From Rhodospirillales bacterium (lineage in GTDB: Bacteria > Pseudomonadota > Alphaproteobacteria > ATCC43930 > CGMCC-115725): DNA of 64,000 nt. Below, piece after piece: positions 48,937 through 57,902 of the stretch. The translations under genes were made by a program, and so were the position numbers. The notes beneath the pieces are model-generated. The model saw nothing but the letters and a program-made list of their open reading frames with translations, had not been told where the DNA came from and did no database searches. The stretch lies in assembly GCA_028288725.1 (NCBI GenBank), contig JAQGIC010000116.1, positions 1 through 64,000 of the forward strand, written 5' to 3'. How positions within the stretch are numbered: the stretch's first letter is position 1; each line of letters starts with the position of its first letter.

Positions 48937-49041
48937 CGTGCTCGTCATTCGGATCATCCATCCGGATGACCTGCGCCAGATCGATAATGTTTGCCGTGAT
49001 TCGATGACGCGTCGTCGCATCGCGGTTTGAGGGACGCCGGC

Positions 49042-50772
49042 ATGACCTTCAACGGAATTTTCCAGATCGCGATCTTTTGTATCGTGATCATCGCGCTCAC
49101 CCGGCCGCTCGGCGGCTATATGACGCGTGTCTTCAAGGGCGAGAAGACCTTCCTCTCGCCGATCTTCCGCCCGATCGAAGGGCTGCTCTACAAGGTGGCC
49201 GGCGTCGATCCCAACGCCGAGCAGGATTGGCTGGTCTATGGCGCGGCCATGCTGCTGTTCAGCCTGGCCGGTGCCCTGTCGCTCTACGGGCTGATGCGGT
49301 TCCAGGACGTGCTGCCGCTCAATCCGCAAGGGCAAGCGGCGCTGACCCCGGATCTGGCGCTCAACACGGCGATCAGCTTCGTGACCAACACGAACTGGCA
49401 GAGCTATTCCGGCGAAAGCACCATGAGCTATCTGACCCAGATGCTGGGTCTGACGGTGCATAATTTCCTGTCGGCCGCGACCGGCGTGGCGCTGGCGCTC
49501 GCCCTTATCCGTGGTTTCGCCCGGCGCTCGTCCAAGACGATCGGCAATTTCTGGGTCGATATGACCCGCTGCACCTTCTACATCCTGCTGCCGATCTCGT
49601 TCGTCTACGCGCTGGTGCTGTGCTGGCAGGGCGTGCCGCAGACGCTCGGCGCCTACGTCGATGCGACCACGCTCGAGGGCGTGAAGCAGACGATCGCGCT
49701 CGGCCCGGTCGCCTCGCAAGAGGCGATCAAGATGCTCGGCACCAATGGTGGCGGCTTCTTCAATGCGAACTCGGCCCATCCGTTCGAGAATCCGACCGCG
49801 CTCACCAACTTCCTGCAGATCATTTCGATCTTCTCGATCGGGGCGGCACTCACCAACGTGTTCGGCCGCATGGTCGGGGCGGAGAAGCAGGGCTGGGCGA
49901 TCTTCGGCGTCATGGGCATCCTGTTCCTGGCCGGCGTCGCCGTGATCTATCCGGTCGAGGCCGGCGGTAATCCGATGATCGGCGCCATGGGCGTCGACCA
50001 GCACGCGAGCCTGTTGCAGGCCGGCGGCAATATGGAAGGCAAGGAAGTCCGCTTCGGTATCGCCAACTCGGCCCTGTTCGCGACGGTGACGACCGATGCC
50101 TCCTGCGGCGCCGTGAATTCGATGCACGACAGCTTCATGCCCTTGGCCGGCATGATCCCGATGATCAATATCCAGCTGGGCGAGATCATCTTCGGCGGCG
50201 TCGGCTCGGGTCTTTACGGCATGCTGATGTTCGCCATCATCGCGGTCTTCGTCGCCGGGCTGATGGTCGGGCGCACGCCGGAATATCTGGGCAAAAAGCT
50301 CGAGGCACGCGAGGTCAAGATGGCGATGCTCGCCATTCTGATCCTGCCGCTGTCGATCCTGGGCTTCACGGCGGTTGCCGCCGTGTTGCCGGAGACGGCG
50401 CTGGTCGGGCTCAACAACGCCGGGCCGCACGGCTTCTCCGAGGTGCTCTATGCCTATACGTCTGCGACCGGCAACAACGGCAGCGCGTTCGCGGGCTTGA
50501 GCGCCAATACGGTCTTCTGGAACGTGACCCTGGCGATCGCGATGTTCGTCGGCCGCTTCCTGTTCATCGTGCCGATGCTCGCGGTCGCGGGCTCGCTTGG
50601 CGCCAAGAAGATCGTGCCGCCCTCGGTCGGCACCTTCCCGACCGACGGCCCGCTGTTCGTCGGTCTGCTGATCGGCGTCATCCTGATCGTCGGCGGTCTC
50701 ACCTTCTTCCCGGCGCTGGCGCTCGGTCCCGTGGTCGAGCATCTGGCCCTGTCGGCCGGCAGCCTGTTTTAG
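49042..50772 (+). CDS. kdpA: K+-transporting ATPase subunit KdpA
   Basis: ATG 49042 follows GAGGGA by seven bases and gives 576 residues. KdpA is the channel-like K+-selective subunit with four pore loops. Selectivity segments are visible: [34 protein letters not shown] and [11 protein letters not shown]. The complex is made when K+ is scarce. No kdpDE sensor genes follow in the operon, so control must come from elsewhere. A short GTG frame at 48938-49030 between kdpF and kdpA is probably not a gene. Confidence 0.95.
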
Positions 50773-50790
50773 CCCGGAGCACATAAGATC

Positions 50791-52881
<2,091 letters not shown>

Positions 52882-52893
52882 AGGAATCCCGTC

Positions 52894-53490
52894 ATGTTGA
52901 AGGAAATCCGTCCGGCCATCGTCATGATCGTGCTCATGACCGCGATCACGGGCGTCGTCTATCCCTATGCCGTGACCGGTGCCGCCAAGGTCCTGTTCCC
53001 GCATCAGGCCGAAGGCAGCCTGATCGAGAAGGACGGCAAGGTGATCGGCTCCAGTCTGATCGGCCAGAACTTCACCGGCGATCAGTATTTCCACGGCCGG
53101 CCGTCGGCGACGACCGACGCGGATCCGAACGACCCGACCAAGACCGTGCCGGCGCCCTACAAGGCCGATGCTTCGACCGGGTCGAACTACGGCCCGACCT
53201 CTCAGGCGCTGATGGACCGGGTCAAGGGCGATGTCGCGAGTTTGAAGGGCGACACGGATGCGGCCGTGCCGGTCGATCTGGTGACCGCGTCGGCTTCCGG
53301 TCTCGATCCGGACGTGACGCCGGCCGGTGCCCTGTTCCAGGCCGGGCGGGTCGCCAAGGCGCGCAATCTGACGGTGGCGCAGGTCAAGGACCTGATCGCG
53401 TCCCATGTCGAGGGACGCACCGGCGGCATCCTGGGCGAACCGCATGTCAATGTGCTGGCGCTCAACCTGGCGCTGGACGACATCAAATAG
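52894..53490 (+). CDS. kdpC: K+-transporting ATPase subunit KdpC
   Basis: A 198-residue protein with one N-terminal membrane helix ([16 protein letters not shown]) and a periplasmic domain with the KdpC motifs [30 protein letters not shown] and [22 protein letters not shown] precedes the start. It closes the operon, and a strong hairpin follows about 85 bases later. Confidence 0.95.
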
Positions 53491-53623: not shown

Positions 53624-54838
53624 ATGACGGCGACGGCGATTCCCATGACGAAGCCCGCGAAGATGCGCGATCCGCGGCTCGATTTCTTCCGCGGCATAGC
53701 GATGTTCGTGATCCTGGTCAGCCACACGCGCACCGACTGGCTGTCGGACTGGATCCCCGCGCGCTTCGGCCTTTCCGATGCGGCGGCCATGTTCGTGTTC
53801 ATCTCGGGCTATGCCGGCGGCATGGCCTTCGGCGGGGTCTACAAGCGGGCCGGCTGGCTGCTCGGCACGGCGCGCATCGGCTTGCGTATCTGGCAGCTTT
53901 ATATCGCCCAGATGGCGATCGTGCTGGTCGTCGCCGCGGTTGCGGTCGCGGCCAACCGGTTCATCCCGGGCGAGGATGACTATCGCTCGATCCTGCAGCT
54001 CGATCTGCTGTTCCAGGACCCGTCGGCGGCGCTGCTCGGCATCGCGACGCTGACCTATGTGCCGCATTATCTCGATATTCTGCCGGTCTACATGGTCGTG
54101 CTGTCGCTGGTGCCGATCGCGATCCTGCTCGCCCGGTTCGTCCATCCGCTGGCGGTGCTGGGGGCGTCGGTCGCCCTCTGGGCGCTCGCCAACGCGTTCG
54201 AATGGAACCTGCCGGGCGATGCGAGCGAGCCGCGCGGCTGGTTCTTCGATCCGTTCTGCTGGCAGATCCTGTTTTTCACCGGCTTCTCGCTGTCGATGAA
54301 ATGGCTGAGGCCGCCGCCGGCCGACCGCCGCGTCTTCTGGGCCGCCGTCGCCTCTATCCTGTTCGGCGTCGCGGTCACGGTGCCGGCGATCTACCAGACC
54401 GTGCCCGGCCTGGACGGGATGCAGGCCTGGATCGTCGATCATGCCGACAAGACCTTTCTCGATCCGCTGCAGATTCTGCATTTCTTCGCGACCGCCTATG
54501 TCGCCGTCTATGTGCTGATCGACCGTCTGCACCTGATTCAGCACCCCTATGTCCGCCCGATGGTGAAGTGCGGGCAGCAGGCGCTGTCGCTGTTCCTCGC
54601 CGGCATCATCCTGGCCGACCTCGGCGGCATGGCGTTCGATCGGATGGGTAGCGGGCTGGGCGCTCAGATTTTGATAAACGGCATCTGCTTCGCCGCGCTG
54701 TTCGCCATCGCCTATGGCGTCGCCTGGATCAAAGCCGCACCGTGGAACAAGCCGAAGCTGGTTCCGGCGACGGACAAGGCCGCCGAACCGCCGGCCAATA
54801 GCCGGACCACGATCCTGCCTTCGATTTCGGTCCGCTGA
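53624..54838 (+). CDS. OpgC-domain membrane acyltransferase-like protein
   Basis: A 404-residue protein with about ten membrane helices. It opens with R-D-P-R-L-D-F-F-R-G-I-A-M-F-V-I-L-V-S-H, the OpgC/acyltransferase-3-type active-site region (R, D and H). The family adds succinyl or similar groups to osmoregulated periplasmic glucans or other envelope glycans. The Pro/Lys-rich tail (about residues 375-404) is cytosolic. No opgGH genes are nearby. It precedes the redox-like operon but is separated by 33 bases. Confidence 0.8.
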   Translation: MTATAIPMTKPAKMRDPRLDFFRGIAMFVILVSHTRTDWLSDWIPARFGLSDAAAMFVFISGYAGGMAFGGVYKRAGWLLGTARIGLRIWQLYIAQMAIVLVVAAVAVAANRFIPGEDDYRSILQLDLLFQDPSAALLGIATLTYVPHYLDILPVYMVVLSLVPIAILLARFVHPLAVLGASVALWALANAFEWNLPGDASEPRGWFFDPFCWQILFFTGFSLSMKWLRPPPADRRVFWAAVASILFGVAVTVPAIYQTVPGLDGMQAWIVDHADKTFLDPLQILHFFATAYVAVYVLIDRLHLIQHPYVRPMVKCGQQALSLFLAGIILADLGGMAFDRMGSGLGAQILINGICFAALFAIAYGVAWIKAAPWNKPKLVPATDKAAEPPANSRTTILPSISVR

Positions 54839-54871: not shown

Positions 54872-55084
54872 ATGGGGACGGCTCAGATCATCGTTGCGGG
54901 TGCGGGGCTTTACGGCGCGATCGGTCTCGCCGTGGCGCTCGGTTTCGTCAGCCTGGGGCTTCATCGCGCCATGCCCGACGCCGGCCCGGTCACCTGGGGT
55001 GCGCGCATCCTGCTGCTGCCGGGTGCGGCGCTGCTGTGGCCCTGGGTGCTGCGCCGGTGGCGCGCGGGCGGGGCCCATCCATGA
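54872..55084 (+). CDS. Small membrane protein, first gene of the Rieske operon
   Basis: ATG 54872 lies after GGGAG and gives 70 residues with two hydrophobic helices (I-I-V-A-G-A-G-L-Y-G-A-I-G-L-A-V-A-L-G-F and A-R-I-L-L-L-P-G-A-A-L-L-W-P-W-V-L). The conserved-looking L-P-G-A-x-L-L-W-P-W-V-L-R-R-W recalls small proteins found beside membrane oxidoreductases, but I cannot name the family. Its stop overlaps the next ATG, so it is co-translated with the downstream redox genes. Confidence 0.65.
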   Translation: MGTAQIIVAGAGLYGAIGLAVALGFVSLGLHRAMPDAGPVTWGARILLLPGAALLWPWVLRRWRAGGAHP

Positions 55085-55224
55085 AGCGGCGGCATCGCCG
55101 CTGGCACCGGCGCATCTGGCTGATCCTGCCCTGTCTGATCGGGGCGGTCCTGCTGGCGGCGCTGGTCCTGCGGCCGGCGGCGCCGATCGGCAACGGTCCC
55201 CTGATCAGCGGGAGCGCACGATGA
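55081..55224 (+). CDS. Small single-helix membrane protein of the Rieske operon
   Basis: A 47-residue protein with a very basic start (M-K-R-R-H-R-R-W-H-R-R) and one helix (I-W-L-I-L-P-C-L-I-G-A-V-L-L-A-A-L-V-L). It overlaps its neighbours by ATGA at both ends. Such tiny subunits often stabilise membrane enzyme complexes. No family recognised. Confidence 0.6.
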   Translation: MKRRHRRWHRRIWLILPCLIGAVLLAALVLRPAAPIGNGPLISGSAR

Positions 55225-56291
55225 ACGCCGGCTTTCGGGCGGTTCAGTGGAACAACCACAAACGCCGATACGACATGCTGCTGGTCGTCGGTATCCTGCT
55301 CTATCTCACCGGCTTTTCGCTGCTGGGCCCTCTGCTGCTGCCGTCCGACCATCCGGTGACGCCGGAGATCGTCCGAACCCGCGCGCTCGGCAGTTGCGGG
55401 CTGCTGATGCTGGTCTTGATCCTGGCAATCGGGCCGCTCGCCCGGCTCGATCGGCGCTTCCTGCCGCTGCTCTATAACCGTCGGCATTTCGGCGTGGCGA
55501 CCTGCCTGGTCGCTCTCGCCCATGCCTGGTCGGCGATCGACTGGTACCACGGCCTGGGCCGGCTGCCGCCGCTGGTTTCTCTGCTGTTCAGCAATGCGAA
55601 CTACGGCAGTTTTCTGGGCTTCCCGTTCGAGCTGCTGGGCTTGGCGGCGCTCGTCATCCTGGTCGTGATGGCGGTCACCAGCCACGATTTCTGGCTGGCC
55701 TTTCTGACGCCGCCCGTCTGGAAGGCGATCCATATGGCGGTCTATGCCGCCTTCGGCCTGCTAGTGCTGCACGTGGCGCTGGGCGTGATGCAGGCCGAAC
55801 GCTCGCCGATCGTGCCGATCCTCCTGGGCGGCGCCGTGCTGATGCTGGGCGGGCTGCACATCGCGGCGGCAGGGCGCGAGCGCGCGACCGACGAACGCGC
55901 GCCCACGGCCGATGCGCATGGCTGGCTGATGGTCGGCACGATCGACGAGCTGCTGGCCTCGCTGCCCGACGGACAGGCGCGGATCGTGGTGCCGCAGAGC
56001 GGCGAGCGCATCGCCGTGTTCCGCAACGGCGGGACCCTGTCGGCGATCGTCAATGTCTGCGCGCATCAGAACGGACCGCTCGGCGAGGGCCGGATCATCG
56101 ACGGCTGCGTCACCTGCCCCTGGCACGGCTTCCAGTTCCGGCCCGAGGATGGCTGCGCGCCGGCTCCCTTCACCGACAAGATCGCGACCTACCGCCTGAA
56201 GCGTGAAGCCGGGGCCGTCCTGGTCGATCCCAGCCCGTTGCCGCCCGGGACGCGCGTCGAGCCGCTTGAGTTCGGAACATCCCATGGCTGA
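55221..56291 (+). CDS. MsrQ/ferric reductase-like haem membrane domain fused to a Rieske [2Fe-2S] domain
   Basis: ATG 55221 overlaps the previous stop (356 residues). Residues of about 15-215 hold six hydrophobic helices with a haem-b-like pattern: R-R-H-F-G-V-A-T-C-L-V-A-L-A-H (H101), and W-K-A-I-H (H171) to L-V-L-H (H184). Residues of about 235-350 are a Rieske domain: C280-A-H282 and C299-P-W-H302 bind the cluster. The layout suggests transmembrane electron transfer between haem and a [2Fe-2S] centre. The topology and partner are inference. Neighbouring small membrane proteins and the Cys/His protein downstream may belong to the same complex. Confidence 0.78.
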   Translation: MNAGFRAVQWNNHKRRYDMLLVVGILLYLTGFSLLGPLLLPSDHPVTPEIVRTRALGSCGLLMLVLILAIGPLARLDRRFLPLLYNRRHFGVATCLVALAHAWSAIDWYHGLGRLPPLVSLLFSNANYGSFLGFPFELLGLAALVILVVMAVTSHDFWLAFLTPPVWKAIHMAVYAAFGLLVLHVALGVMQAERSPIVPILLGGAVLMLGGLHIAAAGRERATDERAPTADAHGWLMVGTIDELLASLPDGQARIVVPQSGERIAVFRNGGTLSAIVNVCAHQNGPLGEGRIIDGCVTCPWHGFQFRPEDGCAPAPFTDKIATYRLKREAGAVLVDPSPLPPGTRVEPLEFGTSHG

Positions 56292-57024
56292 CCCGGAGCC
56301 GCCGTTCTATGTCGGCTATCTGAAGCTGCCGCGCGACCTCAGGGGCTTCCTGGTCGCGCTGGTGTCGATCCTGCTCGTCGTCGATGGCGGTCTGGCCATC
56401 CTCGCCTTCGCGGCACAGCCGCCGCATGCGAGCGGCGACTGGGGCAGCGACGAGGCCGTCTACACGGGACAGTTCCAGGCCAGGCCCTATCCGCTCGTGC
56501 GGCTGTTCCCCGCCGGCGGCAGGCCCGCGAGCGTGGTCCTGCTGGTCGGCGAGGGCAAGGACGGGCCGCCGACCGGGATGGACGAACTGGACGGTGCCAT
56601 GGTCGAAGCGCGCGGCTATCCGATCCGGCGCGGCGATCTGGCCGTGCTGCAGATCGACAACCCCCCGGTCCGGCAGGATGCCTCGCGCATGGCGCCGTTG
56701 CCGCAGGGGCCGGCGGAGCCCGCGACGCTAACGGGCGAGATCGTCGATTCCAAATGCTATGCCGGCGCCATGAACCCGGGCGAGGGCAAGGCGCATGAGG
56801 CTTGCGGCTCGTTCTGCCTCTATGGCGGCATTCCGGCCTTGTTCGTGACCCGCGGTGCCGACGGCGGCGCGCGCTGGTACCTGATGGCGGCGCCCGGCGG
56901 CGGCCCGGTCGGCGACGCGGCGCGGGCGCTGGTCGGACGCCCGCTCCGGCTGACGGGGACGATCCGGCGCGGCGACGGGCTGGCCACCTTTACCGTCGCC
57001 CCCGATCAACTGGCGGCCAACTGA
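56284..57024 (+). CDS. Membrane-anchored protein with a Cys/His motif, Rieske operon
   Basis: ATG 56284 overlaps the Rieske gene by eight bases (246 residues). One membrane helix (about 21-44) anchors a periplasmic part. Residues 151-184 carry a striking cluster: G-E-I-V-D-S-K-C158-Y, G-A-M-N-P-G-E-G-K, H171, C174, C178 and G-G-I-P. I recall this C/H cluster as conserved in otherwise unnamed proteins. It could bind a metal or form disulfides. The function is unknown, and operon position suggests a partner of the haem/Rieske protein. Confidence 0.65.
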   Translation: MADPEPPFYVGYLKLPRDLRGFLVALVSILLVVDGGLAILAFAAQPPHASGDWGSDEAVYTGQFQARPYPLVRLFPAGGRPASVVLLVGEGKDGPPTGMDELDGAMVEARGYPIRRGDLAVLQIDNPPVRQDASRMAPLPQGPAEPATLTGEIVDSKCYAGAMNPGEGKAHEACGSFCLYGGIPALFVTRGADGGARWYLMAAPGGGPVGDAARALVGRPLRLTGTIRRGDGLATFTVAPDQLAAN

Positions 57025-57902
57025 TGCGCCGCCTGCTCGCCCTGTTGCTGTGCCTGCTCGCGGCACCGGCGCTCGCCGGGCCGTCGCAGATCCTCCGGAC
57101 CGAGGAGGCGCCCAGCGCCGCCCTGGGCCATCCGCTGGGCTTCGCCCTTTATCTGCCGCCCGACTACGACCAGGGGCACGAGCGGTTGCCGGTCGTCTAT
57201 CTGCTGCACGGCGCCCTGGGCGGGGCGCTGGATTGGGTCGATCAGGGCCACCTGCAGGACATCGTCGACCGGCTGATCGCGCATCATCGCCTGCCGCCGG
57301 TGATTGTCGTCATGCCCGAGGGCGGGCCCAACTCCTGGTACATGGACTCGGCCGTCGACGGGTCGGGCAATGTCGCGACCGCGATCGAGCAGGATCTGCC
57401 GGCCTATATCGAACGCACCTGGCGGGCGCGCACCGATCGCCGCGGCCGGGTCATCGCGGGCTATTCGATGGGCGGCTATGGCGCGCTGCGCTTTGCCTTG
57501 ATGGCACCGGACCGCTACGCCGCCGCGGCCTCGATGAGCGGCGCGTTCTGGACCCAGGTGACGCCCGATACCCGGTTCGACGAGCACATCCAGCATGTCT
57601 TCGAAGGCGCGTTCGGTCGGCCGTTCGACGCGCGGCGCTTCGTTGCCGCCAACCCGATGACCCTGGCCGGGACGATGCGCCGTGACGGGCCGATTCCGGC
57701 GATCTACCTGACCTGTGGGCGGCAGGACCGCTACCACCTGGACCGCGAGCAGGCGATCATGGCCCGGCGTCTCGTCGCCATGCGCGTCCCGGTCGAGACC
57801 GCGCTGACGCCGGGCGATCACGACTGGGATACCTGGTCGGCCGCCTTGCCCGCCGTGCTGCAGTTCCTCGCCCGCTCTTTTGCTGCCGCGCCGAAAAGCT
57901 AG
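57024..57902 (+). CDS. Secreted esterase (alpha/beta hydrolase, esterase D family)
   Basis: The ATG overlaps the previous TGA. The 292-residue precursor has a signal peptide (L-L-A-L-L-L-C-L-L-A-A-P-A-L-A). The fold is that of putative esterases: V-V-Y-L-L-H-G-A-L-G (oxyanion region), nucleophile S148 in G-Y-S-M-G-G-Y-G-A, and a catalytic His in P-G-D-H-D-W-D-T-W. Related enzymes include S-formylglutathione hydrolase, antigen 85 and feruloyl esterases. Being exported, it probably acts on periplasmic esters. Why it ends a redox-like operon is unclear. Confidence 0.82.
   Translation: MRRLLALLLCLLAAPALAGPSQILRTEEAPSAALGHPLGFALYLPPDYDQGHERLPVVYLLHGALGGALDWVDQGHLQDIVDRLIAHHRLPPVIVVMPEGGPNSWYMDSAVDGSGNVATAIEQDLPAYIERTWRARTDRRGRVIAGYSMGGYGALRFALMAPDRYAAAASMSGAFWTQVTPDTRFDEHIQHVFEGAFGRPFDARRFVAANPMTLAGTMRRDGPIPAIYLTCGRQDRYHLDREQAIMARRLVAMRVPVETALTPGDHDWDTWSAALPAVLQFLARSFAAAPKS

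Follow-up and report, generated by a model that had tools for sequence, protein, structure and literature searches.

A conserved four-gene unit built around a ferric-reductase-type/Rieske fusion protein: a candidate inner-membrane electron-transfer complex

The stretch of DNA analysed here (the window) comprises 64,000 nucleotides from a Rhodospirillales bacterium (contig JAQGIC010000116.1, positions 1 to 64,000 of the forward strand). At positions 54872-57902 it carries a run of five ATG-started genes on the + strand, the third of which encodes a protein, FUS, that joins a six-helix ferric-reductase-type domain to a Rieske domain. A preliminary description made from the sequence alone had given the overlaps between the genes as 1 to 8 bases, and translation together with start and stop codons confirmed this, with successive overlaps of 4, 4, 8, and 1 bases. 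The run contains the following features:

54872..55084, + strand: TM70, a membrane protein of 70 amino acids with two helices (by eye) and the signature R..LL.PG..LLWP..L.RW
55081..55224, + strand: TM47, 47 amino acids, with one helix (by eye) and an N-terminal R.HR..H motif
55221..56291, + strand: FUS, 356 amino acids, with a six-helix ferric-reductase (MsrQ/STEAP-type) domain at about residues 10-215 and a Rieske [2Fe-2S] domain at about residues 235-335
55485..55487, + strand: H89 of FUS, an additional invariant histidine beside the MsrQ-type arginine pair R87-R88
56058..56126, + strand: predicted Rieske cluster ligands of FUS (C280, H282, C299, H302), invariant in alignments
56284..57024, + strand: CH, a Cys/His protein of 246 amino acids with one membrane anchor (residues 17-43) and two predicted beta domains, the second holding the site C158, H171, C174, C178
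57024..57902, + strand: EST, a putative secreted esterase of 292 amino acids (PF00756), outside the conserved module

FUS matched the Pfam families Ferric_reduct (PF01794, 1.3e-10) and Rieske (2.8e-14), and EST matched PF00756 at 6.4e-34. For TM70, TM47, and CH of the window, nothing above the cut-off was found in Pfam or NCBIfam.

A protein scan of 84,980 species genomes for relatives of FUS returned 34 loci (cited below by L numbers), 25 of which were used; L037-L045 were excluded as they match the Rieske domain only. Five records were identified in a plasmid scan, and three of these were fetched for the locus set. L008-L010 were replaced by longer stretches from the same genomes, and L011 was excluded. 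The resulting first set holds 60 locus rows with 58 distinct FUS proteins, as those of L107 and L123 are identical to those of L033 and L035, and the 58 still include near-copies (L030/L031, L023/L025, and six rhizobial rows). Three loci are incomplete: L032, whose contig bears the label Synechococcus, ends within CH, L103 ends before CH, and L024 begins within FUS. Profile searches located FUS in 16 of 337 alphaproteobacterial, 15 of 150 Gemmatimonadota (the phylum of a Longimicrobiales locus), 16 of 199 Planctomycetota, and 5 of 194 Verrucomicrobiota genomes, as well as in 7 of 349 Pseudomonadota genomes, all seven from the class of the window. All 22 loci from the searches of Planctomycetota, Verrucomicrobiota, and Pseudomonadota that were absent from the first set, none of which was used to build models, served as an out-of-sample set.

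The gene order around FUS was kept in distant phyla. Among the 58 distinct loci, TM70 lies upstream of FUS in 56, the exceptions being L024, which starts within FUS, and L035, which has no TM70, while CH lies downstream in 53, the exceptions being L103, where the stretch ends first, and L012, L014, L015, and L117, which are without CH. A TM47 model whose seeds came from 20 of the 58 loci detected this protein in 53 of them; in several loci from other phyla it is about 150 to 180 amino acids long with an added part, presumably periplasmic. A neighbourhood search with FUS and its Cys/His partner, suggested in the preliminary description, bore out the arrangement: in all 22 out-of-sample loci, FUS lies between TM70 and CH, all three on one strand, with CH 2 to 72 bases away from FUS, and TM47 was detected in 16 of them. 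Searched genome-wide, full-length CH (E < 1e-70) was present in 15 of the 337 alphaproteobacterial genomes. All 15 have FUS, with the CH match beginning 5 to 56 bases after the FUS match in every case, and only G417, from which L117 comes, has FUS but no CH. Eight weaker CH matches in this search covered the second domain only and were located elsewhere. CH also adjoins FUS in all five plasmid records with FUS.

Adjacent members of the run are naturally fused. FUS and CH form a single open frame with the CH motif intact in the sequences of L033, L036, L094, L095, and L104, and these five fusions are spread over at least three places in the drawn tree; a FUS-CH fusion is also indicated by model matches in L160 and L173. 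TM70 and TM47 are one protein in L116, L118, L119, and L122, which form one clade in the tree, and in L178, L179, and L180 the TM70 and TM47 models both match open frames of equal length. Because the order is kept in distant phyla and adjacent members are naturally fused, TM70, TM47, FUS, and CH are a conserved gene unit, kept together across at least four phyla. The initial proposal of a five-gene unit thus stood for these four genes and not for EST, which was found, at the cut-offs used, only in the window and its congener (2/60 locus rows, 0/22 further loci). EST was therefore rejected as a member of the system and looks like a local passenger.

Residues R87, R88, H89, H101, H155, H171, H184, C280, H282, C299, and H302 of FUS were invariant in all 60 rows and all 22 further loci; they include H101, H171, and H184, named as haem ligands in the preliminary description, and the four residues named there as cluster ligands. 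In an alignment, H91/H151/H164 and R77-R78 of Escherichia coli MsrQ line up with H101/H171/H184 and R87-R88 of FUS, and the position of H89 is occupied by Leu in MsrQ. H101, H171, and H184 would accordingly be read from sequence as candidate haem ligands. The NCBIfam MsrQ model NF003831 gave FUS 30 bits, far below its 130-bit cut-off. A fold model was made for the natural fusion L036 from 36 alignment rows (predicted local distance difference test [pLDDT] 84.5, predicted template modelling score 0.79). Its membrane part was closest to STEAP4 (Z 15.5, root mean square deviation [rmsd] 4.2, 207 aligned residues), followed by other STEAP and NOX chains (NOX5), and its Rieske part was closest to the ferredoxins of toluene and biphenyl dioxygenases (Z ~15, rmsd ~2). 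As the Rieske domain resembles ferredoxin-type Rieske proteins, quinol oxidation of the bc1 type was set aside.

The same model places about a dozen residues ahead of helix 1 and links the Rieske domain to the CH part by a single helix (369-396), and since one helix separates them, the two would lie on opposite sides of the membrane. That FUS has a basic N-terminus and six long helices suggests that its Rieske domain is cytosolic, and the one further helix ahead of the CH part in the fused model suggests that CH is periplasmic; the likely arrangement is thus Rieske inside and CH outside.

The CH site follows the pattern C-x12-H-x2-C-x3-C (C158, H171, C174, C178). It was kept in all 22 further loci and throughout the first set, including the fusions L036 and L104, except in L030 and L031; L032 is cut short. 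The model of the window CH (pLDDT 90.3) shows one helix (17-43) followed by two beta domains. Most of its top fold matches were oligonucleotide/oligosaccharide-binding (OB) proteins, with Z of at most 7.8 and coverage of residues 51-135 only. From strand order, we read the second domain as probably OB-like too, which would make CH a tandem OB-like protein. The commonest Pfam match of the CH family was DUF5818, at subthreshold scores in 3 of 21 members (best E 0.09), with the window CH not among them. Assignment of CH to a known family was rejected: the window protein has no Pfam or NCBIfam match, and its fold matches were weak and of the OB type, none with E below 0.01, so no relative of CH is claimed.

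Rieske genes other than FUS are enriched around the unit. The regions flanking the 58 loci (820 kb) contain fourteen, spread over 11 loci, where about 2.0 would be expected from the background in 12 author-chosen genomes (~55 Mb), which have 133 Rieske genes other than FUS; the Poisson figure of 2.6e-8 ignores shared ancestry, and it compares a background counted with PF00355 to flanks counted with a home-made Rieske model that had six of the neighbour proteins among its seeds. Six of the 14 are fused to a glutamate-synthase-type domain, four to a pyruvate-oxidase-like thiamine pyrophosphate (TPP) enzyme, and three to an NADPH-dependent flavin mononucleotide (FMN) reductase (FMN_red); the remaining one is a small protein (L023). 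In L117, a Rieske-FMN reductase-type protein stands in the place of CH. Other Rieske genes also occur near 11 of the 22 further loci (glutamate-synthase type, 10; pyruvate-oxidase type, 6; FMN-reductase type, 1), although the glutamate-synthase-type gene of L175 is split in two frames and those of L161 and L163 are on the opposite strand. This enrichment suggests that Rieske-tagged flavoenzymes are an electron source.

The pyruvate-oxidase-like TPP enzyme, which has its Rieske domain at the N-terminus, adjoins the module repeatedly, at L029:4080-6056 and in L024, L116, L119, L165, L167, L169, and L178-L180. The glutamate-synthase-type domain with an N-terminal Rieske domain is found at L029:6078-7709, at L035:5853-7499, and in others; for the L029 protein, no curated NCBIfam model matched at its cut-off. 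Elsewhere in the window's own genome (G000:C75:19639-19971, L002) there is a Rieske domain (CPH...CNWH) with a long C-terminal part of unassigned kind.

As to the electron sink, the gene contexts hint at copper or thiol chemistry in the periplasm. In 10/10 loci examined, secreted proteins related to the CH site domain were paired with a second small protein, and a relative of SCO1/SenC, by a Pfam assignment made on L060, follows the pair in 6 of the 10. SCO1/SenC proteins take part in periplasmic copper and thiol redox handling. In addition, two of the three rhizobial plasmid loci with annotation have a same-strand CopD-family gene downstream of FUS, ~1 kb away in L047 (L047:10094-10510) and 6.6 kb away in L048 (L048:15681-16097). 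The secreted pair itself directly precedes SCO1/SenC at L060:1474-3002, at L061:1456-2984, and in L138, L141, L142, and L144, and stands alone in L137, L139, L140, and L143. Its first protein has a D.WC...H..CA.WCA.GGIP-like pattern and is OB-like by eye; the pair before SCO1/SenC looks like an undescribed periplasmic copper/redox cluster.

The outer neighbours of the unit vary by clade, so that a constant module sits in modular surroundings. Upstream of TM70 in the window lies the following gene:

53624..54838, + strand: OpgC-like membrane acyltransferase gene

As this gene ends only 33 bases before the start of TM70 on the same strand, the operon is possibly longer than first stated, and the OpgC-like gene is probably cotranscribed with the module in the window. 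Further upstream (49027-53490) are kdpA-, kdpB-, and kdpC-like genes for a potassium ATPase, judged by eye from translations. OpgC was found near 12, TPP genes near 14, and CoA-transferase genes near 10 of the 60 locus rows, with OpgC near none of the 22 further loci, and all three were rejected as core parts; in Rhizobiaceae and in L108/L109, OpgC, the TPP enzyme, and the CoA-transferase are near the module but on the opposite strand. OlsB-like and OlsA-like acyltransferase genes, below curated cut-offs, follow CH in 11 of 15 Gemmatimonadota loci and in the planctomycete L035, and such genes occur in 3 of the 22 further loci. At L097:1-4228 and in other Gemmatimonadota loci, OlsB-like, OlsA-like, DinB-like, TANGO2, and hydrolase/VTT genes form a single run after CH. 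In Rhizobium (L046:12915-14665), genes for an extracytoplasmic function (ECF) sigma factor, a DUF1109 (NrsF-like) anti-sigma factor, and a chlorite dismutase-family protein lie 2 to 4 kb downstream of the module.

Taken together, we consider it reasonably probable that TM70, TM47, FUS, and CH make up one inner-membrane electron-transfer complex of the ferric-reductase-domain superfamily, with a cytosolic Rieske domain as its input and the periplasmic Cys/His protein as its output; our confidence in any particular substrate is much lower than in this mechanism. Electrons would enter at the Rieske [2Fe-2S] domain of FUS, of the Rieske-ferredoxin type, donated by cytosolic Rieske-tagged flavoenzymes where these are encoded nearby. 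They may then pass to haem b in the six-helix domain, held by H101, H171, and H184, and from there be handed over to CH at the periplasmic face. The Cys/His site that would receive them, in the second beta domain of CH, could be metal-binding, with copper as a first guess, or a redox thiol centre. TM70 and TM47 would be small structural or assembly subunits. A broader version is more tentative, and we regard it as possible while leaning against it: varied flavoenzymes (of the NADPH-FMN reductase, glutamate-synthase, and pyruvate-oxidase types) would dock by their Rieske tags onto one haem-Rieske conduit, a "Rieske bus," which would drive chemistry at an OB-like Cys/His redox protein of a new periplasmic class.

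Several observations weigh against an electron-transfer complex of this kind, in addition to the limits on the Poisson figure given above. FUS was present in just 5 of 61 genomes (the window's own and 60 relatives), so the distribution of the module is patchy. The CH-less FUS loci L012, L014, L015, and L117 are one clade in the drawn tree, and CH therefore cannot be the sole acceptor. In the Opitutales loci L030 and L031, the CH site reads C-Q-S-S. The structural matches of CH are weak and OB-type (best Foldseek E 0.01, best Z 7.8) and concern the first beta domain only. A Rieske-flavoenzyme is near just 22 of 80 loci, with L017 counted from a partial gene at a contig end and the small protein of L023 excluded, and the flank scan found none beside the window's own locus. 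Finally, the OpgC, TPP, CoA-transferase, and OlsB/OlsA-like neighbours give no pointer to electron transfer.

Alternatively, FUS could be a bacterial STEAP-like metalloreductase that reduces periplasmic Cu(II) or Fe(III), with CH as a metal receiver or a chaperone handing the metal on. The haem-domain fold is closest to STEAP, CH has a conserved C-H-C-C set whose secreted relatives sit beside SCO1/SenC, and CopD-family genes lie downstream in L047 and L048; besides those two genes, however, no metal-handling gene was prominent among the recurrent neighbours that were named (not all were), and STEAP2-4 rely on an NADPH-binding domain and flavin adenine dinucleotide (FAD) rather than on Rieske. 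This alternative, which would be a special case of the electron-transfer reading, appears somewhat unlikely. Slightly less likely still is periplasmic repair as in MsrPQ, in which the complex would pass electrons to CH or to a partner for the reduction of oxidative damage to cysteine or methionine, or to envelope lipid. The MsrQ-type haem ligands and Arg of FUS would fit such a role, as would the envelope-modifying neighbours (OpgC and the OlsB/OlsA-like acyltransferases) and the ECF sigma/NrsF-type pair with a chlorite dismutase-family gene downstream in four close rhizobial loci. Yet these stress-type neighbours are limited to one close group, and neither MsrP nor another catalytic reductase was noticed beside the module, although no search was aimed at MsrP.

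An oxidoreductase of lipid or glycan biosynthesis, with FUS feeding a hydroxylation or desaturation step and CH holding the substrate, seems improbable to us. Rieske domains often feed oxygenases, and the OlsB/OlsA-like genes stand directly downstream of CH in the Gemmatimonadota loci and L035, with OpgC in a fifth of the rows; such neighbours, however, change by clade, many loci are without them, and no oxygenase was prominent among the named neighbours. That the genes are a cluster assembled by chance or preserved by drift, with no functional unit, can be given hardly any credence: it agrees with the variation of outer neighbours between clades and is contradicted by the order in the out-of-sample loci, the natural fusions, and the co-localisation of CH with FUS in 15 of 15 genomes.

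If the electron-transfer complex is real, it would be a transmembrane electron route in Alphaproteobacteria, Gemmatimonadota, Planctomycetota, and Verrucomicrobiota that has so far gone unnamed in the literature searched, where just the pair of domains at its centre is mentioned. Ferric-reductase-type proteins would gain a new Rieske input and a new output, the OB-like Cys/His protein, and a candidate function would be available for the orphans TM70, TM47, and CH and for three kinds of Rieske-tagged flavoenzyme. A Rieske bus would join flavin reductases and quinols as a means of powering a membrane domain of the ferric-reductase type. The four genes are small, which makes their joint expression and testing feasible.

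Fusions of YedZ were reportedly treated by von Rozycki in 2004. In open-licence PMC literature, no description or name of the four-gene module was found, and a subscription paper on it is possible. The accessible text of PMC10715153 and PMC5676040 mentions no Rieske fusion. The survey of Zhang et al. (2013; PMC3591440), in the portions available, defines the YedZ/STEAP group by replacement of the first haem His with Arg, and by that mark FUS falls in the YedZ/STEAP branch, since it has Arg at this position. The same portions give Rieske as one of the domains found joined to ferric-reductase domains, and the legend to Figure 3 has Rieske and FMN in model M4 (PMC3591440). The haem-Rieske pair is thus not new, whereas CH, TM70, TM47, and the gene module are absent from those portions of the account. 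The initial statement that no named system has this composition held for the module in the literature searched, with the qualification that its central domain pair had been noted before.

Among known systems, MsrQ (YedZ), the haem subunit of MsrPQ, resembles FUS in its six-helix domain, its three conserved His, and the Arg at the first haem His position, but FUS differs in its C-terminal Rieske domain, its invariant H89, its partners TM70, TM47, and CH, and its low score on the MsrQ model. In the window, the genes on either side of the module are OpgC and the esterase, neither of them msrP, and MsrP is not among the named neighbour families of the relatives, for which no MsrP-aimed search was made; the early label "MsrQ-like" therefore applies to the membrane part alone. 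STEAP proteins share the six-helix fold with the FUS membrane part, as tested on the L036 fusion, but STEAP2-4 have an N-terminal NADPH-binding domain, while FUS lacks it, has a C-terminal Rieske domain, and sits in a bacterial multigene module. NOX proteins and long ferric reductases have four canonical haem His and FAD/NADPH-binding domains, whereas FUS, aligned with MsrQ, has three of the canonical His and Arg in place of the first, and Pfam shows no FNR-type domain in it. The Rieske-type ferredoxins (BphA3, CarAc, and the toluene dioxygenase ferredoxin) match the C-terminal domain of FUS in fold and in the C-x-H/C-x2-H motif, but in FUS this domain is tethered to a haem membrane domain. 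The secreted OB-like proteins beside SCO1/SenC have a C..H..C...C pattern as in CH, yet they are without a membrane anchor, match the second CH domain only, and are not beside FUS. We take the module to work like MsrQ or STEAP and yet to be a member of neither as defined.

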